Below are positions 8,612 to 35,900 of a stretch of DNA of 64,000 nt, piece by piece. Positions within the stretch are counted from its first letter, which is position 1. Each line of letters starts with the position of its first letter. Below the pieces are notes generated by a model, which was given only the letters and a program-made list of their open reading frames with translations, did no database searches and was not told the DNA's origin. The position numbers were made by a program, and so were the translations under genes. This DNA comes from Cheilinus undulatus (lineage: Eukaryota > Chordata > Actinopteri > Labriformes > Labridae): NCBI RefSeq assembly GCF_018320785.1, contig NC_054878.1, positions 43,747,023 through 43,811,022 on the forward strand, in the 5' to 3' direction.

Positions 8612-8657
8612 ATGGCTCCGCTGGGGTTGATCTTCATTTTTGTGCTCCACTTTGGGG
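8612..8657 (+). CDS. Copy 2 signal-peptide exon
   Basis: ATG GCT CCG begins [15 protein letters not shown], a hydrophobic leader, and the exon ends G|GTAACT in phase 1. An ATG seven bases upstream is in another frame and reaches a stop after the donor. The ATG at 8612 is chosen because the same leader with the same donor occurs in copies 3, 4 and 5 and joins the Ig exon in frame. Confidence 0.8.
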
Positions 8658-11600
8658 GTAACTACCCTTTTTCTATTATTTATCTTTACATGTGTTAAAG
8701 TGTGTCATGGTATAGATGTGCAGATGTATGCTGATGATTGTGTTTAATATAAACATGTAAAATCAGCTGAGCTAGCAGCTAAGGAGTTAGTGGTCAGTCA
8801 TGTCTGAGGTCTAATATGAGCAGAACTAAAGGTTTGTTCTTCTGCTGTCAAAGCTCTTACATGTTTAGAGGATTAGTGTGTTGACGGGCTGCAGAGCGGT
8901 GAAGGGTTAGCACTGTCTCCTCACAGCATGAAGGTTCCTGGTTCTCCACCCGTGAATGTGTCTGTTCTCTCTGGCACTCTGGCTTCCTGCCACCACCAAA
9001 AACATGCTCCTTAGGCTAATTAGTAACTCTAAATCGGTTGTAGGTGTGGGTGTGAGGGTTCCTGGTTGTTTGTCTGTACGTGTCAGCTCTGTTACCGACT
9101 GGTGACCTGTCCAGTCCAGGATGTACCCCAGTTCTCGCCCAGTGACAGCTGGGATAGGCTCCAGCCCCCTGTGAACCTGAACGAGATAAGTGTTGTAGAA
9201 AATGGATGGATGCATAGCTGAGTTTCCGTTAGCCGGTAATTACCGGTCATTGGCTGGTAAAAAGGGCGGAAGTCCGGCAGATAAAAATATAACCGGTCAA
9301 AATGTCCGGCAGAAAACATGCAAATGACCAGATGAGTAAATACTGAATACTTGCATATTATATTTTGTGTGACCTAGAAGATATGTTGCGAGAATGCGTT
9401 AATATAAACTAAAAGTTGCCTAATCTTACTACATCTACTGTCCTGCGGTGCTGGGGTTGTTTATCTCCTCAGACGGCAAGCACATGGCTAATTATGTATG
9501 CACGATGACGTCAAAGCGAATCTATCTCTCTACTGCGCCTGCTCATTACTGCTGGAGACTCTGCAACAGTCTATGCTCTGCAGGGAAAGTTTGACCAGAG
9601 CTTTCGCATGAAGCAGAATTTTAATCTAAGTGAGGTTTTCCTGGTTAACCAAAGGCTTAATATCATCAGCGGTATGGAGGGATTTTTTTTTTATTTTTTT
9701 TTTTAACTTTTTATTTACAAGAACAAAGAACATTAGTTCATCATGGGTGATACAGTTAAAATCAAAATGTTCTGTTACACATACATACATACGTACACAT
9801 ACATCTTAACATAAAGTCTCACTATACAATGTGCATATACATGATCCATTTTTCCCAGCGTTCCACACACTTTTCCAACTGGAGTCTTAAAACAAAAGTA
9901 AGTCTCTCCATACTGTAAATTTCTTTAATGAGCCCGTACCACTGGACCAATGTTGGGGGGTCTGGTTGCAACCACCTTCTGGTTATAGCTTTCCTGGCAC
10001 TTGCCAAAAGGATCTTCAATAGGTACCTGTCCTTATGAAGGACTGTTTCCGGAATTTTACCAAGATATAAAATAACAAAAGAAAAATCTAGATCCACCCC
10101 AATTATTTTATTTATCTCGGTTGACACCTCCCTCCAAAATAATTGGATTTTGGGGCAGGCCCAAAAAACATGAAAGTGGTTAGCCATAGGGGTTCCACAC
10201 TGCCTCCAGCAGAAGCCTCGGCTCTGTGTGCCTGTTTGCAGTGCTGTTAATTTAGGGGTTATGAAAAATCTCACTACATTCTTCCAGCCAAACTCTCTTA
10301 AAGATCTTGAATTTGCGGTGGTCGCTTGTGTCTCACATATTTCTATCCAGGTCTCTTCTGATATTTGTATCCCTGATTCCTTCTCCCATTTTTGTTTAAT
10401 GGATAACGTAGAATGATTTTTAGAGGCTTGTATACTTCCATATATTCTAGAGACCAACTTTTTATTATCTTTTTTTTTATATGCCTCATGAAATATAGAA
10501 ATTAAATTGTATTCCTTCTCCTCCGTGATTTGTAATTTTTTATTATAATAATCTCTGACTTGCAGGTATCTATGGAAGTCCTGCTTCCCCAGTCCAAATG
10601 TGTCTGAAATGAACTCATAACTCTGAAATTTATTGTTTGAGATGAGGGAACAAAAGGATGTGATACCTCTCCTGACCCACTGTTTAAAGCCCCCGTCCAA
10701 TCTAGCAGGTTCAAATTCAGGATCATATGCTATCCAATTCAAGACTCTGACCTGTTTTTCTATTTGTAACTTCCTCAAAACTTTAAACCATAGTTTAAGA
10801 GTGAATACAGTCCATTGATTCAAGCTGTTATAATATCTTTCAGCTTGTTTTTTATTTCCTATTATAGATTGTATTGGAATTTTTAACTGTGTAGTTTCCA
10901 AGCATTTCCATTTAGATTCATAATTTGGAGAGCACCAGTATACTAAGGGTTTCAATTGTGCAGCATAATAGTAATCCTCTAAACATGGTAAAGCTCTTCC
11001 TCCCTTCTCTTTTTTCAGCTGTAGAGTCTTGAACTGAACCCTAGGTCTTCTACTGTTCCAAACGAACCTTGAGATCCAGGCATTCCACTCATCAAATTGT
11101 TCTTTGGGTACCTCTAGAGGCAGAGACTGGAAGAGATAAAGAAGATGTGGCAACACATTCATTTTAATGATTTCTATTCTATTACTCATATCCAGTGGGA
11201 GGAGGGTCCATCTAGAAATATCAGATTTGATCTCTTTATTAATGGGGCCGTAGTTGTTTTCAAAAAGTTTTAACATATCTTTAGTAAGGTTTATTCCTAA
11301 ATATTTTATTTTAGGCGAGTCCCATTTAAAATTATATTTACCTTTAATATCTGGGTGGGGAATATAGTTAAATGTAAGGGTTTGGGTTTTTTGAATATTA
11401 AGCTTATACCCAGAGAATAGATTATAGTTTTTTAGCAGGGACATCAATTTAGGGATGCTTGAATCTGGGCTTGTAATAAAAAGCAAAACATCATCCGCAA
11501 ACATACAAATCTTATGTTCTTCTCCTCTAATCATAGTCCCCTTTATCTCAGAGTCCTCTCTAATTGCTTGAGCTAGGGGTTCAATAAATAATGCGAATAA

Positions 11601-14600
11601 GGTCGGACTCAGGGGACAGCCTTGGCGTGTCCCTCTTTCCAAATGAATAGTTTGCGACAGGTGTCCATTAACCCTAATCCTAGCTGTTGGAGAAAAATAT
11701 ATCGCTCTAATACAATTGATAAAACCTTCTTTGAAGCCGAATCTTGCAAGTGCCCTGTATAAATATTCCCAACCCACCGAGTCAAATGCCTTTTCGGCAT
11801 CTAGGCTGACTAACATTGCACTGATGTTTTCTGATGTAATATGACTCACCACCTGTAGTGTTCTCCTTAAATTATCCTGTGTCTGTCTGTTTAATACAAA
11901 GCCTGTTTGGTCTAAATCTACCAGCTGCGGAACAATGGATTCAAGTCTCTTAGATAGGATTGAAGCAAATAATTTATAATCTACATTCAAGACGGATATT
12001 GGTCTGTATGAGCTGCATTCCTTTTTATCTTTTCCTTCTTTCAGGATTATAGAGATAACTGCTTCCTTCCATGATTGGGGGGCTTCCCCTGTTCTCAGTG
12101 TATAGTTGAAACAGTTAAGCAGGACAGGTGTTATCTGTGGTTTAAATGTTTTATACCACTCGGACGGATAACCGTCTGAACCTGGAGCCTTATTAGCTTT
12201 CAATCTTGAAATGGCTTCATTCAGTTCTTCTGCTGTTATCTCAGCCATAATTTCTTTATTTTGTTGTTCTCCTATAGATGGTAAAGCTAGAGAGCTTAAA
12301 AAAGCCTCTATTGTTGTAATATCTGCCATGGCCGGTTGGGTATATAGTTCTTAATAATATAGTTCAAAGGCATGTTGAATGTCCTTTGTTTCGCTGCAAA
12401 CCTTTTGTGTCTTGGGGTTTCTAATCTTATAAATCGTATTTTTCCCACGTTGTTTTTGAATCCTCCAAGAAAGTAGTTTCATCGCCCTATGCCCCATCTC
12501 ATAATGCCTTTGTTTGGTAAATTTAAGTTGTTTTTCAATTTCTTCATCATATATACCATTTATATCCTGTTTAATTTTGTTTATTTCATTTAATATCTGA
12601 GGATCTTTTTGTTCCATGTGTCTAATTTCTAATGACTTCATTTTCTCTTGTAACTCAACAAGTCTTTTCTGTTTTTCCTTTTTACGAAAAGCCGTGAGGG
12701 CAATAATTTTGCCTCGCACAACTGCCTTTGCTGCGTCCCATAATGTATTTGGAGACACTTCTCCATTATCATTATTTTGTAAATATGTTTCAACTTCCTG
12801 TTGAATCTGTTTCTGTACTGTTTTGTCATTTAAAATGCTCGTATTAAGTCTCCAAAGTGTGTTTTTCCGTTGTTTAGTTAGATGCAGGGTTAGGTACACC
12901 CCTGAATGATCAGATACATCCCTTATCCCTATTTTACAGTCCCTGACTCTGTGCCAATCTGATTTGTACATAAACAAGTAGTCAATTCGTGAATATACAG
13001 AGTGATATGGGGAATAATAGGTGAATTGTTTTTCTCCTGGATGAGACTCTCTCCACACGTCAATCAGACCAAGCTCTGCAAGCATCCGCTGGACTAAAAT
13101 GGCATTTGGACTTTTCTTTTGGCGCTGATTAGATGTATCTAATTTTGGTTGAAGTTGGACATTAAGATCACCACCACAAATTAAAATTCCTTGTGTTTCC
13201 AATACTATCAATTCGAATAGTTTCTTAAAAAACACTTTTTTGCTCCCTGGGGGGGCGTATACATTAAGTAAAGTTACTTCTTCATTGTCTAATTTACCCT
13301 TTACTAGAACAAATCTCCCTTCCTTGTCTTTCACTTCTGAAATAAATTCAAAATTTACTACATTAGGGATCAGTATAGCCACTCCCCTCCTACGGCCTGA
13401 CTTATGAGATGAGTAATAGGTATTTTGAAATCCAAGTTTTTTAAATTTTTCATGTTCTAAAGAAGACAGATGAGTCTCTTGCCAAAAAACTACCTGCAGC
13501 TTTTCTCGTTTCATTTTAGCTATAATCTTGCTCCTTTTGATTGGATTATGCAGCCCATTGACATTTAGTGTGACGATCCTATATTCCTGATGATGCATAT
13601 ACTCTTTTCAACCTGTGTACACCTGTGTAACATTACCCATGATGACCCGAACAAGAACAGTGAACAAAAAAACAGAAAAGCCAAAGACTTCCAAGTCCGA
13701 AGTTCAAATAAAACCTCAAGTTGAGAGGAGATCCTCGCATCCGTCAAGGGCCTCTCATCAGTATCAGAGGGGATACTGTGCACCGGTGACATTCTTTTCA
13801 AGTCAGTTTCTCCATAACCGGTATAAAGTTCCATCTTGTCAAGTACAGAAAATAATAACATTTATTCTCTTTGTAAACTGACAGAGAGTTGAGAAACACA
13901 GGAATTATCTTCAAGTAAAAGGATGTAATGGAAATTATTAGTAAATAAAAATCTAATTCCTTAGTCAACTGAAAATTAAACTGTAAAAGCATTTTCTTTT
14001 GGGTATAAAAATTCAATGTAGGTAAGTTTGGGAAATTTCTTGAGCTCTCCTTGTAAAGAAACAAAAATTAAAGGCTCAGAAGCCCCGGCGTTATCAACTT
14101 AGGTAGGCTGTGTAATTTCAATTTAGGTCAATTTAATTTAAACAAGTCTCGGTAATGATAGTATAAGCCTAACTCTCCTGGTAAACTGGCTAATGATAAA
14201 TCATCCACTTTACATGAGGGTTAATAACACTTTTCCTGCAATGTATGGAGATGTTTACCCTCAGGTGTTTCACTCGCCGCCAGCAGATGCTCCAGGTGGA
14301 GCACGCTGAAAGCTCCGTAGTCTCTCTCTTATCCGCCCTTGGTCCACAATCTGTCTGCGGCGGTCAGCTCCTGCCTTCTCCCACGTTGCCAGTCTCCGCT
14401 GCTTCAGCGCTGCAGTGTCAGGCTCCTTAACATTCTCCATAGGGAATCCTCTCCTCTTCAGGTCTTTAGCCGCCTCTGCCGCGCTCTCGTAGATCTGTGT
14501 ACCGCTGTCAAAGAACACCCTCAGCTTAGCTGGATGTGGCGTTTGGAAGCGGATTCCTTTGGCTTTAAGCTCTCTCAATATCCCCACGTATGCCTTTCTC

Positions 14601-17600
14601 TTCTTCAGTATTTCGGGGGGGTAATCTTGATCAAAATAAATCCTTTTCCCCTCGTAACGCACGTCTTTCTTTCTCCACGCCGTACGCAGTACCTGTTCTT
14701 TCACTCTGAACTCGAGGAAGCAGATCACCAGTGATCTAGGCGGTGCGTCTTGGGGAGGTTTTGGGGCTAGCGCCCGGTGGCAGCGCTGTATTCCGAGATC
14801 CATATCCGCGACCGGCGGGCCGACTTCTGACTTTATTAGTTTTGTTACAAACTCCGAGAGATTGGACCCCTCTGATTCCTCCGGTACTCCGTATATACGG
14901 AGATTGTTCCGGCGCGAGCGTGCTTCTAGCTCGGTCAGCTTAGCTTGCAGTAATTCTTGGCTCGCTAGCGCCTGGGTGAGAGCCTCCTTCGCTGCCGTGT
15001 TCCAGTCTTCAATGTCGGATATGCGCTGTTCGGCCTCCCCCACTCTTGCTGTGGTGGCTTGTAGCTCACCTGTAGCTTCCTGGAGTTTCCGGTTGATTTC
15101 TTCTCTAAACTCGTTCAACTCCTTCTTCATGTCGTTACGAAAGGAAAGTCGAAATTCACTCATTTCACTTTTAACATCCGACCTGAGCGCACGAATCTCG
15201 TTGTATATGGCTTGCATGACAGGGTTAGCTTCTTTCTCGTTAGCGCCGCCATTGTTCTCATAGCTTTCCTCGTCGCTGTAGTATATTTCTTCGACAGTCT
15301 CTCCTTTATCACGTCTTGAACCTTGTTTATATTTAATCTTTTTTTGCTTATCCCCTTCCATGCTCAATTTCCAGGCAGTTTTTTAAATTTAATGTTCTTC
15401 AAAGGGGATAAATATCCGACCGGTTAGGAGCGGGGTGTTTAGGCTGCCATTTGCTTCAAGGTCACCACCGGAAGTGGTATGGAGGGATTTTGAGTATGTC
15501 ATCGCTGTGAGTAATGAAGAGGCTGAATCAAAGGGAAAGGTACAACTGAGCATCTGAAACACCGATGCAGCAGCAGAGAGAGAGAGGCCTACGCCGGCTA
15601 ATTAGCAGAAGTAGTCTTGGATAAGCTGTCAATGAGAGGAGGTTTGGACCGGACTATCTGCTTTGCAGCTTTTATCTTTTCGGGACTAGTCCAAATAAAC
15701 CAGGATGGTTGGATTTACTGCTTTATTGAAGGTTACAGTGATATCATCATGGGGACTGGTATTAGCAACTGACGGTAGCGGCCAATGAGCTAACAGGCTA
15801 ACGGTGCTAATGTGAAGCTAACTGTTGTTTATGAGTTTAACGTGGGTGTAAATTGTGTATCTGACTGCGTGTGTAAGGAAAAGCGCGCAGTCTTTATTTT
15901 GATACTTTAAACCATTTACCCAAGAAAAATAAAAGAAAGTCTTTGTGCAGTCGTTTCTAGGGTCTAATCACGTGTTAACCAGTTTTTAATAACGGGGTAA
16001 TAATTAGTCAAGTTTACTGTTGGCTTGGTTTCTGCTGTCTCGGTTTTGGGTCAGGTCTGGAAATAAAAAGGTGTCCTCTCTCCCGTTTAGCGCAGACTTG
16101 TGTATCAATGTTATCACAGAATATCAGATTCATGCGTTTTGCTGCTGTTAATGCAGCAAAATAATGTTAAAGCAAATGTCCGGTAGTTGTTCTAAATGGC
16201 CGGAATTCTTGAGGACTGCCGGTCATCTTGACCGGGGACAAAAAAGTCTGGCGGAAACGCTGATGCATAGTGTGTTAAAACATGGCAAGGTTCATTTTGT
16301 CAGCTATTTTGAATTTAGTTTTAATCCTTGTTGTTGATTGAAATGTTCTAGAGTTTTATTGTCTCACTCTTGCTTTGGAACTTTTCTTATTTCCATTGTA
16401 TTATTTCTATAAATCTCTCTTACATGTGCCAGAATCTCTGGAATATCATTCAGCTCATTTGTCTCCTCCATAGGTCTATAGTGGTGTGATTATTGACTCT
16501 GTCCCATGTAAAGATGTCCCTCTCACCTCTTCTTGATTTAATACAGAAGTTTGGACAGCTCTCAGGGTTTAGGATTAACTGGGATAAGAGCATTCTTTAG
16601 CCCCTTTCTGATGGCTTTGGCCTCAAACAGCTTCCTAACCTACACTTTAGAATTTCCACTGAGAGATTTAAATATCTGGGACTAAATATTAGATGAAGCA
16701 AAACACTTCAGACCTAAATTATCTTAACTTAGCACAATAAGGAAGGAAATTGGTGTGTAATAGATTGTTTCTTTGTACTGTTTCAATTACATTGTACACA
16801 GTGTCCCAACTTCTTTGGAATTGGGGTTATAATTTTTCACCCCCTAATACAACACAGATTGCACAAGCCACAGGTTAAAAATCAGTCAGAGTCCCGCCAT
16901 CAGTTGGAGCAAAACTAAAGTGCACACGAACACAGCAGAGTATGTGGAATTATTGGGTAAAGACATTATGCACCTAATCTGTAGATTTATTTTCATCTTT
17001 GTCAGCTCTTCAGAGATCAGATGTTAATGTCCAGAGAGATTCTGTGAAGTTTGATGTGAGGTTGGTTTCTGACACTTCTTCTCTTTGTGTCTTTCAAGTG
17101 GTCCACAGTCAAGAGAAGATTTATCGCATCTTCCAACCTGTACAAAACGCCACCCTGCCCTGTGGCTCTCTGTCATCCTCTGGACCTCTGCAGTGCTCTG
17201 ATATTTCATGGCTTTATAACAGAGATCCATCAGAGACCGTTATGGAGGCAAGCAGTGGGGAGGTGAAGCAGACGTCGTCCCGAGCTGACCGGCTGAGTTT
17301 GGACTCCAACTGTTCTTTGGTCATTAAACGTGTCACTGCTGAGGATGTTGGTCTCTACACGTGTCGACAGAATGGTTCTGATCCTTACGATGTAAATGTG
17401 TATCTCAGTGTTTTTACAGGTAAGTCTCATTTCCATGATTACCATGAAGGACATTTATGGAACAAAAGATTGCATTGTGTCCAACCTTCCATCTGCTGGT
17501 TTTGGTTTATCACCAGTACTATTATCAGACCTTATACCACTCTAGTCACGATTGTTTGGTCAAAAATAGAAAAAGTAGAAACTTTTCAGGGTCTTGTTTG

Positions 17601-20600
17601 GGTGTCACAAACATTCCAGCAGATATCAGAGCTTTTCCAACTAAATTTTGATCTTTTTCTTTCAGTCTTTCCGACACTGACTGACTCTGATACGAGGAGC
17701 ACCAATGATCCCACATTAGAGTGTTCTCTGCTGAGATACAGAGGTTTGAGTTCCTGTCAACCAAACAGTCTCCTCTGGGTGGATGAGACAGGAGCTGTGA
17801 TTACTGACGGTGTTACAGAGAGTTCCAGAGACGCAGACTGTTTCTCTGACCTGAATGTGACGCATCACATCTGCAAAAACAGGAAATTCACCTGCCAGTC
17901 TGTTAACGAGGAGAACAATGTGGAGCTACAGGCCGACTACACACCTTTCCAAAACTGTAAGATCACCTGATAAATCAAATTAGAAAAAGCTGAAAGTTCC
18001 ACTTTGACCCAAACATGGCTGTCAGACCCACTGTACATTTTAAAAAATCCCCCATTTGGACCCCCTCACTTTGACTGGGTCACAACTGTCTGTGCTATTT
18101 TCAATAAAATCTAATCCTCAATAGAACGATTAAACTAATGAAACTCCCCACCACACTTTTACTGCTACCCTGTAATCTTTCTGCTTTCTCACTGAGAGAA
18201 CGTCTGCTTTAGAGAAACTCCACGTCCTGTTTTCACTGCAACCTGTAGTCTGCCTGTGTAACGAGCCGCCTCAACACAGACAGCAGAACCACATAGAGCA
18301 TGAATCACCTAAACTGTCACTACAAGTCTGACATTTATTTAAATGTTGGTATTAAACTCACCTGTTGCTTCTAACCTTGTTTTTGATCACTTACAAGCAG
18401 CCACATTGTTTGGTGAGCAAAGCACTAATGCTAGAAAACAGAGTAACTGTGACTGTTGGGTGGTCTTCATGGTGGCTCCATCGTTGGGTGGTTGTGCAAT
18501 TTTTCTTCATGTATGAACACAGAAATGCTTTTCTTGCTCAGTCTTGTTGTATCTAAGATATCTGCAGAGAAAAATTTATTTCCCACGGACAGATGTAGCC
18601 CCTACAGCCTTGAATTTCTCATGTACTAGTTCATATAGCCCAAAGCGTCCTGCGGGAAAAACAAGAGCCTTTTTTTTCCATTTCCCTTTACCACATTTAT
18701 CTGCTTCTTGAAAATGATTCAATCGTTTGTTTTTTTTTCTCAGAAAATTTATCCTGTTAACACTCCTGTCTCATCCATCAGCTGTACATTTAAGATGATG
18801 GCTTGATTTTAGCTTCAGTGGCTCAGTTCAGACTCCAGAGAGATGCTCTCCTTATCTCTGATGTTATGATAAAGAGTCAGTACAGAGTGTTGCGAGAGTT
18901 TCTATGAGCTAAAACATAATATAAGACACGCACATCAGTAAATGAATTCTATGGAAAAGCAGAGAGAAAACTAAGTGGTCTGGAAGAAAGCTCATGTTTT
19001 TCAAGCATTTATTTGCAAGAAGTGATGTTTGGAACCAACGTGTTCTTCCTCAGACTGGTGAATGTTTCTTAGTCCCCATCTTAATAACCATGGGTAAGCT
19101 GGAGTCAGCAGTCTGTGGTGTACCAGCTGTGTTTCTAACTCCTCATCGTCTCTCTACAGGGACTCGGTGTAAGACGACCGCTAAAGCCGACATCGTGCTG
19201 CTGGTGGATGATTCTGGGAGTATCTCCTCTAGAGACTTCAGAACCATCCTCCACTTCATCGCTTACATAGTTGGAATGTTTGACATCGGCCCTGACAGAG
19301 TTCAGATCGGTAAAACGTTCACCTTAGTCAGACCAAACTTGTCTCAACATTCCTGTTTTAGCTGTAGAACAGATGAGATCACATGATCTTCACCTTTTTC
19401 ATCCATAGTTTTGACTGTTTAATACTGTTTTTTGAAAACTGTGCTATGGCTGAAACAGGTTTTCTCTATGTTGGTGCATCAGTGTCACTTTTCAGTTCCT
19501 GTGGTTTTTTATACCCCTCAGTGTGTCCTCTTTGCAGGTCTGACTCAGTACAGTTTTGAGCCAAGGACCCAGTGGCACCTGAACACCCACAGAACCAAGA
19601 AATCTCTGCTGAATGATGTTAACAAGCTGCAGCAAATGGGAGGCTACACCATGACAGGTAAAAAGAGCACTGTGGGATCACATGATCAATCTAGTGTTGT
19701 CAGGATACCAGATTTTTTATTCTGATCTGACTCTAGTAAAAGTCAATATCAGTACATGTTTAAATACCACAGTAACAAATGTAGAAGTCAAATCTTCCAG
19801 ACAAACTCCTGTGCACAGTCTACAGTGCACAAATTTGCATTCATGGGATTTTTGGTGTAACTGGGAAGTCCCACCACCAGATCCTCGCTGTCAAGCTCCC
19901 CTATCATGTCTGGGTCCAGCGGGGTGCCATGGTTGCCCATGTTCAGGGAGGTGTGTATTTGTATCTGTAATTTTTAGACCCTCTCAACTTTCACATCCAG
20001 AGACTTTTAAAAAACAGCACAGAGAAGTGGAGAACAGAGAGAGGAAGCTAACTGAGACTAACTTTGCTGTTGTGTCTGCTTCTTCCTTTTCTTCGTTGGT
20101 TGTTCATAGCAGTTGGGTTGTATTTTTTTTTTAATAAAACTAATAATTAAAAGAACAGAAAAGAGTTGACCTTCTGAGTAAACCTCTGACCTCCTCTCTT
20201 ACAGGACGGGCTCTGACACACATCCTGGAGAATGACTTCCAACCCAACGTTGGGATGCGAGAGGACTCACGAAAACTTGGCATCCTCTTTACAGATGGAC
20301 AAGCCCAGGACGACATTATCATGTCGTCACAACACTTGAGGGATAATGGCATCGAGCTGTACGCCATTGGTGAGATTTTTTACTGAGTGTTTGTCATCAT
20401 CCATCCATCCATCCATTTTCTTCCACTTTTCCTGGTCGCAGGGGCAGCAGTCTCAGCAGAGAAGCCCAGACACTCCTCTCCCAGGCCAGTTCCACCAGCT
20501 CCTTTGGGAGTATGCCGAGGCATTCCCAGGCCTGCCTAGAGATGTAACTTCTCCATGGGTCTCCTGGGTCTGCCCTGGGGTCTCCTCCCAGATGGACATG

Positions 20601-23600
20601 CCCGAAACACCTTCCCAGGGAGATGTCCGGCAGGCATCCTTACAAGATGCCCGAACCACCTCATCTGGATCCTCTTAATGCGGAGGAGCAGCGGCTCTCC
20701 CAGATGTCTGAGTTCCTGACCCTATCTCTGAGGGTGAGCCCAGACACTCTGCAGAGAAAGCTCATTTCGGCCGCTTGTATTCGCGATCTTGTTCTTTCGG
20801 TCAGTATCCACAGCTCGTGACCATAGGTGAAGGTTGGAACGTAGATTGACCGGTAAATTGAGAGCTTTGCCTTCTGGCTCAGCTCTCTCTTCATCACAAC
20901 GGACCAGTGTAACGCCTGCATTACTGCAGATGCCGGACTGATCCGTCTGTCAATCTCGCGCTCTATCTTTCCCTCACTTATGAACAAGACCCCGAGATAC
21001 TTGAACTACTCCACTTGGGGCAGAGACTCTCCTCTGACCCGGAGTGGGCAGTCCTACCTTTTCCAGCTGAGAACCATGGCCTCAGACTTAGAGGTGCTAA
21101 TCCCCATCCCAACCACTTCACACTCGGCTGCAAACCATCCCAGAGTGAGCTTGAGGTCAGTGTTCAATGAGGCCAACAGGACCACATCATCTGCAAAAAG
21201 CAGAGACAGAATCCTAAGGCTACTGAACCTGACACCTCCACCACTTCACTAAGCCTAGAAATTCTGTCCATAAAAGTTATGAACGGAACCGGTGACAAAG
21301 GGCAGCCCTGACAGAGTCCAACCCTAACTGGGAATGAGTTCAACGGGCGGGGCCACTCTACAGAAACTGCACTTTTGTCTGTAACGGAATCACTGCGCTT
21401 GGCTAGAGCAGCTGGTCAGTCTTCAGTTCTCTTACTGCTGGATCTGTCTGCTGCCTTTGACACAGTTAACCACCAGATCCTCCTCTCCACACTCTCTTCA
21501 CTTGGTATCTCAGGATCTGCCCTCCAGTGGTTTAAGTCCTACCCCATGGGGAGATCTTTGAGAGTATCATGGAAGGGAGGAGTGTCCAAACTGCATGGTT
21601 TATCAACAGGGGTGCCTCAAGGGTCTGTGCTTGGTCCCCTACTTTTCTCAATATACACCACCTCACTTGGTGCAATCATCCGCTCCCATGGCTTTTCTTA
21701 TCACTGCTATGCAGATGATACACAGCTATTCCTGCCCTTTCCACTAGACGATACAACTGTCTCAGTTCGAATCTCATCCTGCCTTGCAAATATTTATAAA
21801 TGGATGAGGGAACATCACTTTCAGCTCAACCTGTCCGAGACTGAGCTTATTATCATCCCAGCCAGTCCCACTGTGGAACCACGGATCAGTATCTAGCTTG
21901 GATCAAATAATCTCTTGCCCACTAAGTCAGCCCGAAATCTGGGTGTCATGATTGATGACCAGCTAACCTTCAAGGTTCATGTGGCCTCGATTGCTTTGTC
22001 CTGTCGATTCGCCCTCTATAACATCAAGAGGATCAGACCCTACTTGACAGAGCATGTGCCTAAACCCACAAATGCATTTAATTAACACACTGCAGCCGAA
22101 AAAACACGCTAGTTTGATGTCTTCATAATAAACAATCTTCCGGTTGTTATGGTTGAGGGCGAAGGCATCAATGATTCTGCTTGGTCCAGGGCTCGGGTTC
22201 TGTCTGAGTTTAGTGCTAGCAGTAGGCTACCAGGGTGCTGGTCTGAGAGTCTCTGCTGCTGTTCCTCAACCCATTCTTTAAATGACGCAGACATCACAGC
22301 TCACTAATGTGGCAGGAAGGGTCAAAGATATGGATAGGAGTTTAAATAAGTCTATAAAGGCATCCAGAGGTTTTTGCCTTGTAAAACCAAACTTCTCCTG
22401 AGTGGGATTAAAACAGCTGAGCTCGGGATGACAAATGTTTTCCCTGCGTATATTGTGACGCGAACATCGTATCTCGCTTTTGAGAGCGACTCAATTCAAT
22501 CTCTTGTCTGATTTAATCCCTGATTATTACAATCTATAATGCCAAAGTAATATCAACTAATTTTATTTAACATATGTTTTAACTTTATGTCAACAAGAAG
22601 TGACATTATGGTCTTGATCACTTAAGTTTAAACGGGACATGGTTTATAAATTCTGTGGCATATTTAACTCCAGTTCTCATCAAATAGTAAAAATTCCTCT
22701 CATAACGACAAAAACAAAACTTTATAACTGAATATTTAATCCTAATCTGGACACAGGCATGAAACATGAGGCATGAGAGGTCGGCATGTTTGATCTTGAT
22801 GCAGTGCTAAATTACGCACGGAGATGCCCCAGTGCATGACGCGTGCAGGGACGTCAGTTGGATTCAGATAGAGTGGACATGCAGAAGAAGGACTGTAGGG
22901 CTCATACGTGTGTTTAAAAGTCAAGTTTTCACTCAGCAGGTGAGGGTTTGCAGCTTTATAAACAGTAACAGGGCAGCAGTGCGCAAATCTCCACAAGAAA
23001 GAGCAAGAGGCTCTCTCTCTGTCGCTCTCTCTCTCTCTCCCTCCCTCCTTTCTCTCTCTCTTTCTCCTCTTTCTGGACTCTGTGTAGGCAGGCCCAGGCC
23101 AGGTTAAACAGGGCTCATATCAGGTTTTGTGAATAGGTTGCTGTTTTAAAGTCATAAACAGTCATATTGAACGATATTCCAGTCTTGTAAATTCATCATC
23201 TGTGGATTCTAAAAACGTCAAAATCTGTCAAACTTGTCACATATAACAAGGTCAGCATATTTTTGTCTGACCTGTTTAGATTACTTGCAAATAAATTCTC
23301 CTTCTAAGGTAGCTAATTAACCCTTTAGTGTGCAAACATGCAGCACTCATTAAATGGTACCTACATCTAATATTGGATCATTTCTCTTTATAAACAGGCT
23401 GGGCCTGTCCAGGCCCCATGGGTAAAGGCCACCAGGCACTTGCCTGCAGGCCCTGACCCCAGGCCTTGCTCCAGGGTGGGACCCCGGTACCCCTCCGGCC
23501 AGGGTGATCATGTTTGTGTTGGGACTTGTCATGTGGGATCTATGGCTGCGCTTTGTCTGATCTCTCACCTAGGACCAATTTGCCATGGGAGACCCTACCA

Positions 23601-26292
23601 GGAGCAATTGCCCCTGACAACACAGCTCCTAAGATCATTGAGGCACTCAAACCGCCCCACCACAGAAAAGTGGCAACCATCATCATAATTAAGATAATTC
23701 AGTGATACAACCAGGTTTGAAAATTACAGAACATGTCAGAAGCATACTTAAGGTACCAAACACACTGAGTTTAAAAAACATTCAATCGATAAAACTTTAT
23801 TTAGCATTTTTCAAACAAAACAATGTTTTACAAACAGACAAATAAATAAAAGGAAACATGACCCTTACTAAACCCTCAAGTTGTTTGGAGTAAAGTTCCT
23901 GGAACTAAAAGTTCCTGGGACTTTTGGTCAAAAAGTGTCTCAGGTGGACGGTGGAGGTGGCAGCATGACTCACAGGCTGTTGGTCTTCACTTCACCATCA
24001 AGAGTTAAACTGACGTATTTCAGCTGACAGGATTACAACCTCCACATGGTGAAACAGAAGGTTCTAGAAGAACCACAGAGCTTCTCTGAAACTGCACAGT
24101 GTGGACTTTACTGAACACAAGAGAAATCTTCACAAAGGCTTGTGTTGTGTATGTTCTATTGTAAATAGATCTTTGGTTAATAATGAGATATTGGGAAGAC
24201 TACTTTAAACAGTTTGTTCATTTGTATGTTAGAATTTGGTCGTCAAAATTCTTCTGGTAGTCTTTAGGTAGATAGCATAATGTTTGTTTCTCAACTTACA
24301 AACCACAGTTTTCTCTCAGGTGTGGGTGATGCTGATCTGAGACAATTGAAGTCCATCGCCTCTGACCCACACAACACTCACCTGTACCTTATCAAAAACT
24401 TTGCTCTTCTGCCGCACATCATCACCAGTCTCACTGACAACCTGTGTGACAGCATCAAGGGTCCAGGTAAGGAGGGAGACTCAACATGACCCAGTTATGA
24501 AAATCTACAACAAACTTGTTGACTTCAGTGATGCAGGAGTGTTTTTCCTGACAGTGGCTCTTTGACTCCTAAGAGTTAAAACTCTTCAATGTTAGGATTA
24601 AATGTTTGTGATTTTGCTCTCTTTATTTATATTTCACAATCATTTCTGATTCAAATGGAGCTCAGCCCCTGATGTTTTCAGCCTCTTCTTTCTTTTTTTT
24701 TCCAGTACGCAGCAGTCAGAAAGACATCTATCACTTCTCCCTACCTGAACAAGTCGTCACCCTGCCCTGTGGTACTCCGTCCCCCTCTGGACCTCTCCCA
24801 TGCTCTGACATGTCCTGGCTTTATAGCAGAGCTTCATCAGAGGCTTTTACTGAGGCCAATGAAGGAAAGGTTAATCCCAGGTCCCTCCGAGCTGGTCGGC
24901 TGACTTTGGACTCCGACTGTTCTTTGGTCATCAAACGTGTCACTGATGAGGATGTTGGTCTCTACACGTGTGGCCGTAATTATGATGATCGTTACAGCGT
25001 CAGAGTGTATCTCAGTCTGTTTTTAAGTAAGTCTCATTTCATTATCATCAGTTTAAAGTATTGCACAGCGCTCAACCTCAGAAACATCAGTTATCATCTG
25101 ACAGACAAAACTTTAGACTTCCAGTGTAGCCAGCAGATATCTGATATGTGGGCTTAACCTTCCTCTTCTGTCTAATGGTCACTTTCTAAATTAGCATTCA
25201 TTACCAGATCTTATTCCTACTTCAGTCCTGGCTGTTGTACTAAAAAGTACAAAGATGAGAAGAAACTTTTCAGGGTCATGTACGGAAGTCACTTAAATTC
25301 AGATGTCAAATATTTTTAAACTGAGATTTTGATCTTTTTCCTTCAGTCTCTCCAAAACCGACAGACTCTGATCCAACGAGCAACAATGAACTCCAGTTAG
25401 AGTGTTCTCTGTTCAGATTCAGAGATCTTCATCTTTGTCCACCATACCGTCTCCTCTGGGTGAATGAGACAGGAGCTGAGATCACTGACGGTGTTACAGA
25501 GACTTTCAGAGATGAAGGCTGTTTCTCTGACCTGACTGTGACTCGTCAGAGCGGACACAACAAGACATTCACCTGCCAGGTTGTTGATGAGGAGAACAGT
25601 GTGGAGATACAGGCCAACTACACACCTGTCTTCACAGGTAGGACCATTATTTATGCTTCAACAAGATCTGTGGAACAAAACAGATGACAAGACAAATAGA
25701 AGTGTAGGGTAGAAGATGTTTTCTAAAGAGCTGCCACTGTGGTGACCAGAATGCCAGGGTTAATAATTCAATCAGAGCCTTCTTAACTAACAGATATCCT
25801 TACATGTTCAGTTACAGTTTTTCACTTATGAATGTTTTTCTCATAAAACTTCAACAGACTGGTCTCCTCTGAGCTCCATCATGCTGGTTCTGCGTATTTC
25901 AGCTCTTGTTTTGATGATCGTGAGCACTGTTTTGGTCTTCACCCTCAGAGGTGAGGAAATAAACACCATCAATGTGGCAGAAATAGTTCAAACTAATCAT
26001 ATGTAAAACATTAATGCTGCTATTTACTTCCAGGTAACATCAAACCACGGCGTAAAGAAACCAGCGTGAGTTTAAACTAACTCCTACCATGTGTGACATT
26101 TCTTCTGACTGATGAAACCTCTGAGACGATGGACTCTGCAGGATTTGCTCCGTTGACTCTTGTTGTTTTGAATCTCATGTGTTGTGTTGTATTTCACAGA
26201 TGCATGAGGATGTCATTGAAGCCGACGATGAAATTGATGAAGCATTTGGTGCTGCTTCCATCGAACTGCAACAACTTCCAGATCAAGATTAA
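8612..26292 (+). CDS. Copy 2: Ig-Ig-vWA-Ig-Ig type I membrane receptor (12 exons)
   Basis: Exons by GT/AG and frame: 8612-8657, 17099-17419, 17666-17956, 19160-19309, 19538-19657, 20205-20369, 24320-24466, 24706-25026, 25347-25637, 25858-25950, 26034-26065, 26200-26292. They total 2070 nt and about 689 residues with no internal stop. Order: signal peptide 1-16, Ig-V 16-122, Ig-C 123-219, vWA 220-413, Ig-V 414-520, Ig-C 521-617, transmembrane exon 618-648, tail 649-689. All junctions are phase 1 except the last (phase 0). The MIDAS set is present: DxSxS near 236-240, Thr near 307, Asp in TDG near 340. It probably acts at the cell surface, with the vWA binding ligand through a metal ion. Intron 1 is swollen to 8.4 kb by a LINE inside a hAT element. 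The first Ig acceptor reads TTTCAAG rather than TTTCCAG. I know no named gene with this architecture; expression is unproven. Confidence 0.8.
8886..9217 (+). mobile_element. tRNA-derived SINE with GGATG tail, intron 1 of copy 2
   Basis: The head GGGCTGCAGAGCGGTG..GGTTAGCACTG and AAGGTTCCTGGTTC resemble pol III A and B boxes. The body (CTTCCTGCCACCACCAAAAAC; CAGCTGGGATAGGCTCCAGC) and the tail AAAATGGATGGATG are those of a widespread teleost SINE family. Orthologous insertions lie in copies 3 (broken at 33262), 4 (42287-43373, headless) and 5 (55280-55609), so it predates the duplications. Confidence 0.75.
9822..13598 (-). pseudogene. LINE ORF2: endonuclease and reverse transcriptase, one in-frame stop
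   Basis: Two open stretches, 13598-12351 (415 aa) and 12329-9822 (835 aa), are in the same frame and separated only by a TAA at 12351-12353. The first is an APE-type endonuclease ([33 protein letters not shown]). The second is a reverse transcriptase with the [12 protein letters not shown] block typical of the Tx1 group, [10 protein letters not shown] and the catalytic FADDVLLF. A Cys/His-rich segment ([20 protein letters not shown]) lies near the C-terminus. Total length is about 1258 codons, normal for the family, so the element is otherwise intact. Confidence 0.9.
14270..15367 (-). CDS. LINE ORF1 protein (L1 ORF1p-like RNA-binding chaperone)
   Basis: 365 residues. A charged N-terminus is followed by a long coiled coil (about 60-150, heptad-like with many Glu/Arg) and the hallmark [14 protein letters not shown] that opens the RRM of L1-type ORF1 proteins. 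A C-terminal domain follows with [17 protein letters not shown]. Such proteins form trimers that coat LINE RNA and are needed for retrotransposition. No stop or frameshift is seen. ORF2 begins about 670 bp downstream. Confidence 0.88.
   Translation of the reverse strand: MSMEGDKQKKIKYKQGSRRDKGETVEEIYYSDEESYENNGGANEKEANPVMQAIYNEIRALRSDVKSEMSEFRLSFRNDMKKELNEFREEINRKLQEATGELQATTARVGEAEQRISDIEDWNTAAKEALTQALASQELLQAKLTELEARSRRNNLRIYGVPEESEGSNLSEFVTKLIKSEVGPPVADMDLGIQRCHRALAPKPPQDAPPRSLVICFLEFRVKEQVLRTAWRKKDVRYEGKRIYFDQDYPPEILKKRKAYVGILRELKAKGIRFQTPHPAKLRVFFDSGTQIYESAAEAAKDLKRRGFPMENVKEPDTAALKQRRLATWEKAGADRRRQIVDQGRIRERLRSFQRAPPGASAGGE
16480..16740 (+). mobile_element. Old L1/Tx1 reverse-transcriptase fragment
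   Basis: Decayed coding similarity to LINE ORF2 just after the FADD region: a block like [16 protein letters not shown], then [13 protein letters not shown]. The same fragment lies in intron 1 of copy 4 (43600-43855, still open) and shortened in copy 5 (55785-55910). It therefore inserted before the array expanded and is unrelated to the young LINE at 9687-15475. Confidence 0.6.
17099..17956 (+). CDS. Copy 2 Ig pair A (Ig-V exon 17099-17419, Ig-C exon 17666-17956)
   Basis: The Ig-V exon has [12 protein letters not shown] and the J-side DVGLYTCRQ motif with paired cysteines. The Ig-C exon has [14 protein letters not shown] and FTCQSV, with extra cysteines (SSCQP, DADCF) likely forming a second bridge. 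The CDR3-like loop carries an N-glycosylation sequon (NGS). Exon lengths are 321 and 291 nt, identical to pair B downstream. Both exons are phase 1-1. The open frame runs through the intron between them, but clean GTAAGT and TTTCAG sites bound it. Confidence 0.85.
19160..20369 (+). CDS. Copy 2 vWA exons 1-3
   Basis: Exons 19160-19309, 19538-19657 and 20205-20369. Exon 1 has [20 protein letters not shown] (MIDAS DxSxS) and [11 protein letters not shown]. Exon 2 has [15 protein letters not shown] and GGYTMTG (MIDAS threonine). Exon 3 has LTHILENDF and [13 protein letters not shown] (MIDAS aspartate), then IELYAIG. The strand order and motifs match the vWA of FACIT collagens more closely than integrin I domains, judged from family knowledge. 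Exon 3 has no ATG-initiated ORF of its own and is easily missed. Confidence 0.87.
20395..21340 (-). mobile_element. Rex3-like (RTE clade) LINE 3' fragment
   Basis: On the minus strand, degraded LCQGCPLSP-type RT sequence (about 21290) leads to [20 protein letters not shown] and [16 protein letters not shown]. The (GGAT)n tail lies at 20396-20414. This C-terminal block is characteristic of teleost Rex3/RTE elements. It interrupts the intron just after vWA exon 3. Confidence 0.7.
21345..22070 (+). mobile_element. L2-type LINE reverse-transcriptase fragment
   Basis: Open reading 21375-21896 carries [37 protein letters not shown] and CYADDTQLF (YADD catalytic box). It continues past a stop with [13 protein letters not shown] and [16 protein letters not shown]. 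This is the RT core of an L2-clade element lacking both ends, in opposite orientation to the adjoining Rex3-like piece. Confidence 0.75.
22071..23690. other. Repeat-like intron sequence without a gene
   Basis: No supportable coding region. Holds a TC-rich microsatellite (23011-23076) and a TTAACCCTTT motif at 23319. A GC-rich block (23395-23690) looks like a fragment of an unidentified dispersed repeat; its short ORFs on both strands show no domain. Confidence 0.4.
24320..24466 (+). CDS. Copy 2 vWA exon 4
   Basis: Reads [33 protein letters not shown] then LCDSIKGP. It completes the YAIG|VGDA strand-helix junction of the vWA. It lies almost 4 kb from exon 3 because of the inserted LINE pieces. 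It differs from copy 1 at 14 codons by replacement and 2 silently. Confidence 0.87.
24706..25637 (+). CDS. Copy 2 Ig pair B (Ig-V exon 24706-25026, Ig-C exon 25347-25637)
   Basis: The Ig-V exon reads [27 protein letters not shown] and [16 protein letters not shown]. The Ig-C exon reads [30 protein letters not shown] and [10 protein letters not shown]. Same exon lengths (321 and 291 nt) and phases as pair A, so the two pairs are an internal duplication. NET and NKT sequons are present in the Ig-C. The donor after the Ig-V exon is TTA A|GTAAGT. Confidence 0.87.
25858..26292 (+). CDS. Copy 2 transmembrane and cytoplasmic exons
   Basis: The TM exon 25858-25950 encodes [20 protein letters not shown] and continues hydrophobically to VLVFTLRG. 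A single arginine (about residue 630) sits inside the hydrophobic span. Tail exon 26034-26065 gives [10 protein letters not shown]; last exon 26200-26292 gives [17 protein letters not shown] and ends LPDQD. The tail is about 41 residues, acidic, tyrosine-free, without ITIM or ITAM. The intramembrane arginine suggests pairing with an acidic-TM adaptor (inference). Confidence 0.83.
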
Positions 26293-30400: not shown

Positions 30401-31946
30401 CACCGCATTCCACATTATTATGCAAATGATATTTTTCTCTGATTTTCCTAAATATTAATGCAAATGACAGAATATTTTTCAAGTCATCAGCCATTAGAGC
30501 ATAATTCAAATGTTTTTGAACAAACTTCATAAAGACAAAAATTATTTTTTTAAAAATAAAAACCTCAAAATGCACTGTTCCACATTATTAAGCACAACAG
30601 CTTTTTAAAACATTTTATAGCTTGTAAAGAACTGAAAATGGTCATTTGTAGAAATTGCAGCATCAGGGGGTCATATTTACTGAAATCAAAGCTATTTCAA
30701 TCAAAAACATCTTAACAGGACAAGTTCCATGTTAACATAGGAGCCCTTCTTATCACCTTCACTATTCCTGCATCCATTGAACTTGTGAGTTTTTGGAGAG
30801 TTTCTGCTTGAATTTCTTTGCAGGATGTCAGAATATCCTCCCAGAGCTGCTGTTTTGATGTGAACTGCCTCCCACCCTCATAGATCTTTAGCTTGAGGAT
30901 GCTCCAAAGGTTCTCAACAGGGTTGAGGTCAGGAGGGGATGGAGGCCACACCATGAGTTTCTCTCCTTTTATGCCCATAGCAGCCAATGACACAGAGCTG
31001 GTGAGATGGTGCATTGTCATGCTTGAAGAAAATTTTGCTACAGAAGGCACGATTCTCTTTTTGTACCATGGAAGAAAGTGGTCAGTCAGAAACTCTATAT
31101 ACTTTGCCGAGGTCATTTTCACACCTTCAGGGACCCTAAAGGGGCCTATCAGCTCTCTCCTCATGATTCCAGCCCAAACATGACTCCGCCCCCTCCTTGT
31201 TGACGTCCCGGCCTCATGGGACATGGTGGCCATCCACCAACCATCCACTACTCCTCCATCTAGACCATCCAGGGTTGCATGGCACTCATCAGTAAACAAG
31301 ACTGTTTGAAAATGAGTCTTCATGTATTTCTGGGCCCACTGCAACCATTTCTGCTTGTGAGCATTGGTTAGGGGTGGCTGAATAGTAGGTTTATACACGA
31401 CTGCAAGCCTCTGGAGGATCCTACACCTTGAGGTTGGTGGGACTCCAGAGGCACCAGCAGCTTCAAATACTTGTTTGCTGCTTTGTAATGGCATTTTAGC
31501 ATCTGCTCTCTTAATCTGATGTATTTGTCTGTCAGAAACCTTCCTCATTATGTCTTTATCTGCACAAATCCGTCTGTGCTCTGAATCAGCCACAAATTTC
31601 TTCACAGTATGATGATCATGCTTAGTTTTTCCTGAAATATCAAATGTTTTCATTCCTTGTCCAAGGCATTACACTATTTGACACTTTTCAGCAGCAGAGA
31701 GATCCTTTTTCTTTCCCATATTGCTTGAAACTTGTGGCCTGCTTAATAATGTGGAACATGTGGAAAAGTGCATTTTGAGGTTTTTATTTTTTAAAAAAAT
31801 AATAGTTATCATTATGAGGTTTGTTCAAAAACATTTGAATTATACTCTAACTGTTGATGACTTGAAAAATATTATGACTGTCATTTGCATTGATATTTAG
31901 AAAATCAGAGAAAAACGTTGTTTGCATAATAATGTGGAACGCGGTG
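30401..31946 (-). mobile_element. Tc1-like transposon, 1546 bp, decayed transposase
   Basis: Terminal inverted repeats CACCGCATTCCACATTATTA / CACCGCGTTCCACATTATTA with TA duplications at 30399-30400 and 31947-31948. The paralogous empty site after copy 4 reads GGGATAGACTATAGTTGATAC (52728-52748), giving exact boundaries. The transposase ORF lies at 30712-31653. Confidence 0.93.
30712..31653 (-). pseudogene. Tc1-family transposase, degraded
   Basis: 313 codons. The first catalytic Asp lies in VLFTDECHATLDGLDG, and SPPDLNPVENLWSILK carries the third acidic position. The second catalytic block, normally a QDNAPCH-like motif, reads SMTMHHLTSS, so it is frame-shifted or mutated. The N-terminal paired-type DNA-binding domain is shortened. 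Probably inactive. Confidence 0.8.
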
Positions 31947-32975: not shown

Positions 32976-35900
32976 ATGGCTCTGCTGGGGTCGGTCTTCA
33001 TTTTTGTGCTCCAGTTTGGGGGTAACTACTCTCTTTCTATTATTTATCTTGTGTTAAAAGTGTGTCATGGTGTAGATGTGCAAATGCATGCTGATGAATA
33101 TGTTTAATATAAAACATGTAAAATCAGCTGAGCTAGTAGATAAGGAGTTAGTGGTCAGCCATGTCTGAGGTCTAATCTGAGCAGGACTAAAGGTTTGTTC
33201 TTCTGCTGTCAAAGCTCTGGGATTAGTGTGTTGAAGGGCTGCAGAGCAGTGAAGGGTTAGCGCGAAAAGACGATCTCAGATAGTGACGAAATAGAATGGA
33301 TCCGTGATCTGCTAATGCTGTTTCATCGTGGAATCGGCTCTATTTCTTCTCGCTCTTTGCTCCCTCTCTCCCTGCCCTCCTGCCTCCTGATGCAGCGGAG
33401 TCTCACGCTGCAAGTGAAAGTGAAACTCAAGCTTTAGTTCTTTCCAGCTGTCTTATGCCAAGCCGTGTCTTGGTTTTCTGACCCATTCATGTGCAAAAAA
33501 TATTTCTTTGCACAATCTGCACAAAGCTTCTAACGTTTTTTGATGAGCTCTTAAGACGGCGTGGTTCGAAAAGGGAAGAGAGATGGAGCATACCGCAGTC
33601 AGCAGAGTAAAGCATGGCAGAAGGAGATCGCCTACAGCATGGATTGTTTTCCATTGTTTTCCCGTTTTATTTACAACCCTTTCCACCTGACAGGTAACAG
33701 AATCATGAGTGAAACTTTATAATATCAGCGTCGGAGAGGGCGGCGATGTCCACGAGGTCCAGACATGGTTCATTCTTAGAAAATGTTTTAACAGGGTTGC
33801 CAACTTTGGGTTGCTGGCTGGAGTGAGATTTTGTTCATTATACATGCCCGCACTCAATGATGGCGACGTATTCAGACTCATTTCACCATTAGGGTTTAAA
33901 AAGTATGTGTCTTACACAGGCCCTAACACACACACACACACACACACACACATAATAGCAGCAATTATTGAAGTATATGAGTGTGATAAACAACAATTTA
34001 CTGTGCTTCGTTATTTGCTAGCAAACCTTGAATAAAATAGATATGGACCGCAGAGGCCATGCTCACAATGCCATAAATTTAATTGGGGATAAAAACTTGT
34101 TGGGTCGGCCACTTATGAAATCTTAGATGGTGCTGTGAGCTTGGTTCACCTGCGATGGTCTCATTTCTGAAGACTGTACCTGAGTCTCATCATCTTTATT
34201 CTCCCTCTCTTCTGACGATGTCCCATTCCTGCTGCCTCTGTCTGCTAGCGCCAGTCCCTCGTCTCTTCCTCTCTCTCTCCTTCTTAAAGTATCTCAGTAT
34301 GCTCATCTGCAGTAACACAGTTGGTAAGTCTTTCTTCAAAACATACATGGTTGCTACATTATCAATTGCACAGAAAAACTCACTACTACCGGAGCAAAAG
34401 AGGACGTTTGGTCACATTAACGTAAGCTAGCTAGTGGTTAACTGTTAGCCCATTCAGCTGTTATCCTTTGTGCCTTACAGAGCATTTATTCCAGCAGTAC
34501 TCAACCTTCATCCACCCAGGAGCCACATTGTCTTAAAAATACTATTGCAAGAGCCCCAATCCAAAACATTTGATGATCAATCTATCCATAGTTGAAATAA
34601 AACAGTGAATTGGTGGATTATTATGTTGTTCAATGGGATGAAATACAGAAAAATGTTTGTATAGTGTCAGAAGAAAAGATATTTCACTGATAATAAGCAT
34701 ATGTTTGTATTTATATAAGCTCCACCTGGACTAAAGTCTTTATAAAATGTCAGAACGTGCTGACTCAGAGCTATAAGGAGCTTTTCAAAGAGCTGATGAA
34801 TCATGGGAGTCTGTTTGGGTATTTATATTCCATATTTTGACATTCACTGTAGTTCTGTGACTCTGTTAACTTAAAGTTATGCTTTCTATTTTTCTCCTCT
34901 CATTATTATCGGTTTTAGCTAAAGGGGGAGGGTCCCCATAGTGGTCTTTGCCCTGGGCCTCCAGATGGATAAAACCGGCCCTGCCTCAGACCTGCAGCTC
35001 CCCTCACAGATCCTTCTGTCCTGCCAGTTTGTTGCTTTCATTTTTATGTGTCTGCCCTTTTGACAGTATTTATCATTAGTACGTTTAAGATCAAATTTGG
35101 ACAAGTTTTACTCAGTCTGTTGCCTGGTCTTCATTCTGTGTGTCTGTGTCACCGCCCCCTTCCTTAATAAATGCATCCAGAGAAATCAATTAGATTTTGT
35201 TTTAATCTAAACAACTAAAAAGCTTAGGTGTGTTATTTATTTCATTTAAGATTTGCGTTATCAATATATATAACCACTTGTTTTAACAAACAGCAACTAC
35301 CAAGCAAAATGCATGAGGTTACACAGGTAATGCAAAAACAACAAAAAAAAACATGTAAAATAACACATAAGCATACATTTTTAGTTCTAAACTGAGAATA
35401 GTGTCAGCTGGAATGGCTATCTTATACTTTAAATGTTCTTACCTCTCCATTCATCTGTACCACCTCTGTTGTTACCTTCATGAATACCATATACTTGGCA
35501 TCACTGTCATCCAGAAAAGCCACGTCTTTAAAACGAGGATCAAGTGCTAAAGCACAGTGGAGAAGGTTTTGAAGATATGTATGGCGACCATCAAAGTCCT
35601 GTCTAAATCTTTCCTTCATCTGGGAAGGAACTTGTAGATCACTCTCATCTGGTTGGAAAGGGCTCTGCAGTTTGGCTTGGATTGGAGAGATCATGGAGAT
35701 GGTGGGATTTTTTTTTACCTCACTGAGGAGTGTGGTTGCCACTTTCAGAGGGGACATCAATTTGATGATCCCTGGGATCAGTGTCATGTCATCTTCTGTC
35801 AAACTGACCATAGCTTCTCCCCTCTTTATCTTCCTTGACAGCGGGGTGTTCAGCACAGCAGGCTGCTGCTCCCAGAAACACTCCATCATATCAAGGGTAC

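Follow-up and report, generated by a model that had tools for sequence, protein, structure and literature searches.

A tandem array of predicted Ig-vWA-Ig receptor genes in the fish Cheilinus undulatus and the divergence of its vWA exons

The variable recognition surfaces known in vertebrates are built on Ig, LRR, lectin, SRCR and B30.2 domains. Integrins, through their I domains, and anthrax toxin receptors (ANTXR) are membrane proteins that bind ligands via the MIDAS of a vWA domain. The integrin I domain lies inside a beta-propeller, and ANTXR combine an N-terminal vWA with one Ig-like domain; to our knowledge, neither occurs as a diversified tandem array. Hemicentin, a secreted protein, likewise combines a vWA, placed at the N-terminus, with Ig domains (many of the I-set type), and collagen XII (a FACIT) carries its vWA module beside FN3 in a secreted matrix collagen. 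Among the clustered Ig families of fish, the NITRs are type I Ig receptors encoded in germline clusters, with a V domain, a second Ig domain and a very divergent recognition domain; members without an ITIM that have a positively charged transmembrane (TM) residue, such as Arg, are activating and pair with Dap12 (PMC2442602). The NILTs of salmonids carry CX3C, CX6C or CX7C in their V domains, of which there are one or two, and have an ITIM/ITAM tail (PMC3022915).

The window studied here, the whole stretch of 64,000 nucleotides at C14:43747023-43811022, lies on contig C14 of a 1.17 Gb C. undulatus genome in 46 contigs. Its receptor-like copies, numbered 1 to 5, share with NITRs the clustering, the type I Ig plan, a very divergent recognition domain and the TM Arg without ITIM, but the fast-changing part is the V domain in NITRs and the vWA here. 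The J or J-like FGXG motif that follows the V or I domain of NITRs (PMC2442602) was absent by eye from seven V and six C exons, and the six conserved cysteines of the NITR I domain compare with four that are invariant across six C exons here. NITRs are recognised by an ITIM or a charged TM segment, and only the latter, activating form was seen in the TM exons and spliced genes tested here. As in NILTs, the genes form a clustered multigene family; neither the NILT cysteine motifs nor an ITIM/ITAM tail was seen. The initial annotation had suggested an undescribed receptor family. No fish Ig-vWA-Ig receptor family was found among the literature matches listed, drawn from a collection with few subscription papers or preprints, and the suggestion stands within that scope and for one fish genome.

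Gene model and copies of the array

The initial annotation had joined twelve exons of copy 2 (8612-26292, plus strand) in frame, and this model held: the spliced product has 689 aa without an inner stop, in the order leader, Ig-V, Ig-C, four-exon vWA, Ig-V, Ig-C, TM and tail. All 11 introns are GT-AG, ten in phase 1 and the last in phase 0. The leader exon L (8612-8657), a signal peptide by eye, has its GT donor at 8657 in phase 1. It is followed by V1 (17099-17419; translation and Pfam) and C1 (17666-17956; translation and alignment with C2), and then by the vWA exons A1 (19160-19309), with the DxSxS of the MIDAS, A2 (19538-19657), with the MIDAS Thr, A3 (20205-20369), with the MIDAS Asp, and A4 (24320-24466), the most divergent exon. 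V2 (24706-25026; translation and Pfam), C2 (25347-25637; translation and alignment of the C exons), a TM exon with an Arg within the membrane segment (25858-25950) and the tail exons T1 (26034-26065) and T2 (26200-26292, including the stop), both from translation, complete the gene, the tail being about 41 residues long.

A Pfam scan of spliced copy 2 placed VWA over profile positions 1-172 of 174 (4.9e-47) and V-set on two stretches (6.9e-15), with a sub-threshold match to the herpes gE N-terminal family; FN3, collagen and propeller families gave no match. Among PDB entries, the vWA fell close to collagen VI alpha 3, PTMP1 and integrin alpha X; for the Ig parts, the searches gave just a broad placement. 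No best Pfam stretch falls on either C exon of copy 2, and these exons are named Ig-C because of their position, the four invariant cysteines and a tryptophan; in seven V exons, cysteines are invariant at 21, 32, 71 and 88. Copy 2 thus differs from integrin alpha I chains, since no propeller family was found in that scan, and from collagen XII, which combines FN3 repeats and a collagen helix in one product; here, the vWA lies between Ig pairs on a predicted membrane receptor. The earlier view that hemicentin is built differently was also upheld, a V-C pair preceding the vWA and a TM exon following it. The V1-C1 intron of copy 2 (17420-17665) is open in frame, within an ORF spanning 16978-17970, probably by chance because the corresponding intron of copy 4 differs.

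The same order had been claimed for copies 4 and 5, correctly for copy 5 (55006-63868, plus; L 55006, V1 56429, C1 57005, A1 59146, A2 59522, A3 61364, A4 63163, V2 63548), which leaves the window after V2, with C2, TM and tail beyond. The genome sequence supplies the rest of this copy, up to C14:43813701, and the complete copy was spliced and is open with one GC donor. For copy 4 (41378-51438, plus) the claim failed in one exon: a protein-level search of the window found A3 in no copy other than 2 and 5, besides a 7-residue chance match, so copy 4, otherwise in complete order, lacks the exon for the third MIDAS loop. The idea of a single receptor survives as one chimeric gene at the level of sequence, the loss of A3 from copy 4 having been overlooked. 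Copy 1 is a remnant (714-1277, plus; A4 714-860, T1 1019-1050, T2 1185-1277) without V2, C2 and TM, in which A4 is directly joined to the tail exons; A1 was not found, A3 is broken, and the product, if spliced, would be without a membrane segment. Copy 3 (32976-38627, plus; L 32976, V2 37032, C2 37678, TM 38193, T1 38369, T2 38535) is without the vWA and the first Ig pair, and its final stop is altered, adding 16 residues.

The stretches read on C14 (43596001-43856000, and 43.588-43.596, 43.856-43.866, 43.876-43.884 and 43.884-43.890 Mb) place these copies in an array at about 43.60-43.89 Mb that comprises 15 units and, in them, 17 vWA modules, whole or partial; the vWA-less copy 3 comes in addition. 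Copies 2 and 5 and units G1 and G3 are open throughout, and damage or missing parts affect most of the 15. G3 (C14:43651661-43659909) was spliced and is open. The diverged copy G1 (C14:43597844-43615489, minus) reads L-V-C-vWA-V-C-V-C-TM-T2, with one extra Ig pair; all its matches are open, with a one-codon gap in C1 (T1 lay outside this search). Every part is present in G5 (unspliced), which has five V2-C2 pairs and a TM segment two residues shorter with His in place of Arg. G14 (C14:43830619-43852855, minus) has a leader, V, C and three consecutive vWA modules, the third without A4, and no TM was found before the inversion edge where the unit ends. Module number is therefore fluid, as the triple vWA of G14 and the five pairs of G5 indicate. 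G15 has the complete order with the frame broken at the start of A3, G2 has no TM match and a stop in its tail match, V2 and C2 of G4 are disrupted, and G6, G7, G13, G16 and copies 1 and 4 are incomplete within the stretches read. An apparent inverted segmental duplication relates C14:43712000-43737600 to 43860000-43887500 (G6/G7 versus G15/G16, with G7/G16 aligned).

Origin of the Ig and vWA parts

The V domains of the array are akin to those of a large local cluster, in which its genes are thereby placed. Searches gave 86 V-domain matches at E<=0.001, one on contig C2, one on contig C5 and 84 on C14, the latter within 42.39-43.89 Mb; this single-contig, V-type Ig cluster of about 1.5 Mb has the vWA array as its far end. 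The Ig-only stretches read, L033 and L035, contain V-C pairs with no vWA match. No relatives of the Ig part were confirmed in viral contigs or prokaryote genomes.

The closest four-exon relatives of the vWA module found in the genome outside the array are L031 (C18:29.6456 Mb) and L032 (C14:46.591 Mb), whose exon edges and phases match those of the array. In a tree whose outside rows were 12 single-exon vWA stretches from eight loci of this genome, with other multi-exon vWA genes (contigs C3, C8, C16 and more) left out, 15 array modules, L031 and L032 form a clade apart from those 12 stretches with a support of 98/99, a bootstrap that is unsettled. Copy 1 (too gappy) was dropped from the tree and G6 (partial) from all vWA sets. 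The array module nearest to L031 and L032 is that of G1, at 73-76% identity. FN3 adjoins the L031 module (8.4e-08), with a second FN3 just below the cut-off; only L031 was scanned in this way. From their vWA sequence and this FN3 context, we take L031 and L032 to be collagen XII genes. Because the exon layout is common to both and the array modules group with collagen-XII-like ones, the vWA looks to have been captured from a collagen-XII-like gene by exon shuffling. We infer the direction, from collagen to receptor, from the age of collagen XII, which is taken to be the older. Zebrafish has two col12a1 paralogs, according to the available part of PMC5081208. On this account, receptors of an Ig cluster now contain a collagen-like symmetric exon module, and the same contig retains a gene of the donor type at a distance of 2.7 Mb, which would make the birth of this receptor family traceable. 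The collagen-type origin of the vWA goes beyond the initial annotation, as does the variable MIDAS face described below.

Divergence of the vWA exons and of the MIDAS face

Estimates of dN/dS among the window copies, based on few changes, were mixed (Ig1 1.1-4, V2 0.4-1.1), and divergence was therefore compared between each exon and its flanks. Across all young copies, in pairs that have copies in common so that the counts are non-independent, the median for A4 was 14.6% versus 3.6% in the flank (above it in 65 of 66 pairs, p<0.01 in 61), for A2 13.7% versus 5.6% (54 of 55 pairs, p<0.01 in 33) and for A1 10.9% versus 5.5% (62 of 66, p<0.01 in 25); A3 is a weak island, at 9.0% versus 6.0% (28 of 34, p<0.01 in 3). 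As controls, V1 (2.8% versus 4.9%), V2 (3.1% versus 3.8%) and C2 (1.7% versus 4.4%) exceeded their flanks in 2 of 21, 7 of 38 and 1 of 41 pairs, respectively. C1 (8.0% versus 6.5%, 22 of 36 pairs) and TM (3.3% versus 2.0%, 30 of 45) were slightly above. Within the window, A4 differed by 14-19% versus 0.4-3.3% in its flanks (p<=6.4e-06 in six of six pairs) and A1 by 12.7-16% versus 4-7.8% (three pairs, p 0.024 to 5e-05), and C1 reached p=0.0026 in one pair. A mosaic test of A4 had just 6 informative exon sites (4, 1 and 1) and was set aside. Since the vWA exons diverge more than their own introns and most Ig exons do not, the vWA would be the part that faces a changing partner.

Six MIDAS-face loops were set from the topology of integrin I domains after inspection of the window copies. 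In those copies, on which the loops were chosen, 23 of 49 loop sites vary versus 34 of 145 others (p=0.002). Nine array copies outside the loop choice gave 33 of 49 versus 55 of 144 (p=0.0004; entropy p=2e-06), a new test whose independence is incomplete, these copies being relatives of the window copies. For all 13 young copies the counts were 33 of 49 versus 67 of 144 (p=0.009). The bias is also present in G13 and in the young-copy pairs shown. It is absent between L031 and L032, the collagen pair (5 of 49 versus 23 of 144), and between the oldest copy, G1, and one collagen module (9 of 49 versus 37 of 144). The five MIDAS residues are kept in 15/15, 15/15, 14/15, 13/15 and 13/14 of the readable array copies, the last count being without copy 4, which has lost the exon.

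Among the 13 young copies, dN/dS was 1.52 on the face (bootstrap 0.99-2.60, which just includes 1), 0.81 off it (0.56-1.20) and 1.06 over the whole vWA; by exon, it was 0.61 for A1, 1.43 for A2, 0.73 for A3 and 2.05 for A4. The collagen pair gave about 0.06, with synonymous sites near saturation. Synonymous divergence on the face is also raised (0.206), so gene conversion or old alleles contribute. Broken or misframed sequence (A2 of G7, A3 of copy 1 and the first residues of G15 A3) was dropped from the face tests, tree and dN/dS, and dN/dS also went without the A4 of G2 and the final A2 codons of both G4 and copy 4; the older copies G1, G2 and G13 were excluded from the face tests and from the young-copy dN/dS.

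Competing readings and a possible role in recognition

The exons could belong to two interleaved families, or to pseudogene debris, with Ig and vWA parts in separate transcripts. The gene model is drawn from genomic DNA, parts are missing from copies 1, 3, 4 and several others, and AATAAA/ATTAAA signals occur inside copy 2 (three in the C1-A1 intron, one in the A4-V2 intron), with none within 1.3 kb past T2. When the C1-A1 and A4-V2 introns of copies 2, 4 and 5 were scanned for hydrophobic runs, a single marginal one turned up, in copy 2 only, under settings too strict to detect a leader, as a real one was missed. Homology searches, however, found no unit with more than one leader or more than one tail set, and leader homologues at unit starts only, and the A4-V2 intron of copy 2 measures just 239 bases, every junction before the tail being in the symmetric phase 1. 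Frames are kept, too. Copy 2 was aligned with copies 3, 4 and 5 in nine comparisons (non-independent, as copy 2 is shared, and with lost exons outside the count); frame-breaking indels numbered 41 over 7361 intron sites and zero over 4204 exon sites, against 23.4 expected in the exons, which had one in-frame indel. Of about 8 nonsense changes expected, none lay inside the translated exons. The diverged G1 retains the order; compared with copy 2, it has a dN/dS of 0.67 across eight exons, a set that excludes C1, leader and tail. A single chimeric gene is supported by the one leader and tail set, the short intron, the phase-1 junctions and the frames kept even in the diverged copy, and separate transcripts appear very improbable.

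For such a chimeric gene, a matrix or adhesion receptor that kept a collagen-XII-like role, its copies varying by relaxed constraint after duplication, would agree with the kinship of the vWA to collagen-type modules, with the near-neutral dN/dS off the loops and with the many damaged copies. Relaxation alone should not, however, make A4, A2 and A1 diverge about 2-4 fold more than the adjoining introns, nor leave the MIDAS residues mostly kept while the loops change, and we regard this account as unlikely. Gene conversion could also have spread divergent exons without selection for variety while introns were homogenised. The near-identical inverted duplicates G7 and G16 point that way: gaps apart, they differ by 0% in A1 and A4 and by 0.2-0.4% in the outer flanks, and yet by 18% in A2 and 15% in A3 (the G7 A2 looks damaged), which suggests that one of them has had its A2-A3 block exchanged; the synonymous divergence of the vWA exons likewise exceeds that of the flanks. 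Introns within that block differ by just 2-5%, however, V1, V2 and C2 of the same genes have no islands, and the bias towards the MIDAS-face loops needs a further cause. Conversion by itself is thus a rather poor candidate.

The reading we favour, with some confidence, is that these are chimeric type I receptors of a tandem family, germline-diversified and probably activating, in which the vWA is the variable recognition part. The gene model, kept frames, module kinship, divergence islands and MIDAS-face bias beneath it are properties of the sequence itself. An Ig V-C receptor gene of the large Ig cluster would have taken up the symmetric, phase-1, four-exon vWA module, with a collagen-XII-like gene as donor, and the chimera would then have multiplied in tandem. 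Its vWA may bind ligand via the metal site, like integrin I domains, on a scaffold of the more conserved Ig pairs, and diversification may be driven by a ligand that itself changes, either a microbial adhesin or a self molecule that is polymorphic, and aided by gene conversion of short tracts. An Arg is present in 10 of 11 TM exons, plus that of G1, and no ITIM pattern was found in the three spliced genes (G3, copy 2 and copy 5); the tail of copy 2 has no tyrosine, and some other tails have one. From the TM Arg and the tails without ITIM, the receptor is probably activating, and the Arg, the one TM residue that suggests such pairing, would by analogy with the NITRs engage an ITAM adaptor like DAP12 or FcR-gamma. 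More tentatively, the array may be a germline recognition system in which a metal-dependent vWA from a matrix collagen is the ligand-facing variable part, its exons individually diversified by selection together with gene conversion, and the Ig domains are a more conserved scaffold. If so, the vWA fold would join the known variable recognition surfaces of vertebrates, fish would have, in a diversified germline array, an I-domain-like surface that depends on metal and recognises something, and MIDAS mutants would allow a direct test of its ligand.

Transposable elements lie among these genes, as they do in the NILT cluster of salmonids (PMC3022915). By eye, an L1-like LINE occupies part of the first intron of copy 2 (9822-15382, minus), with an open ORF1-like frame at 14270-15382 and an endonuclease/RT frame with one in-frame stop. 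A long ORF resembling a Tc1/mariner-type transposase (30712-31668, minus) lies between copies 2 and 3, again by eye, and hAT-like transposase pieces (35422-36734, minus), likewise recognised by eye just upstream of the Ig exons of copy 3, may mark the deletion of its first Ig pair and vWA.
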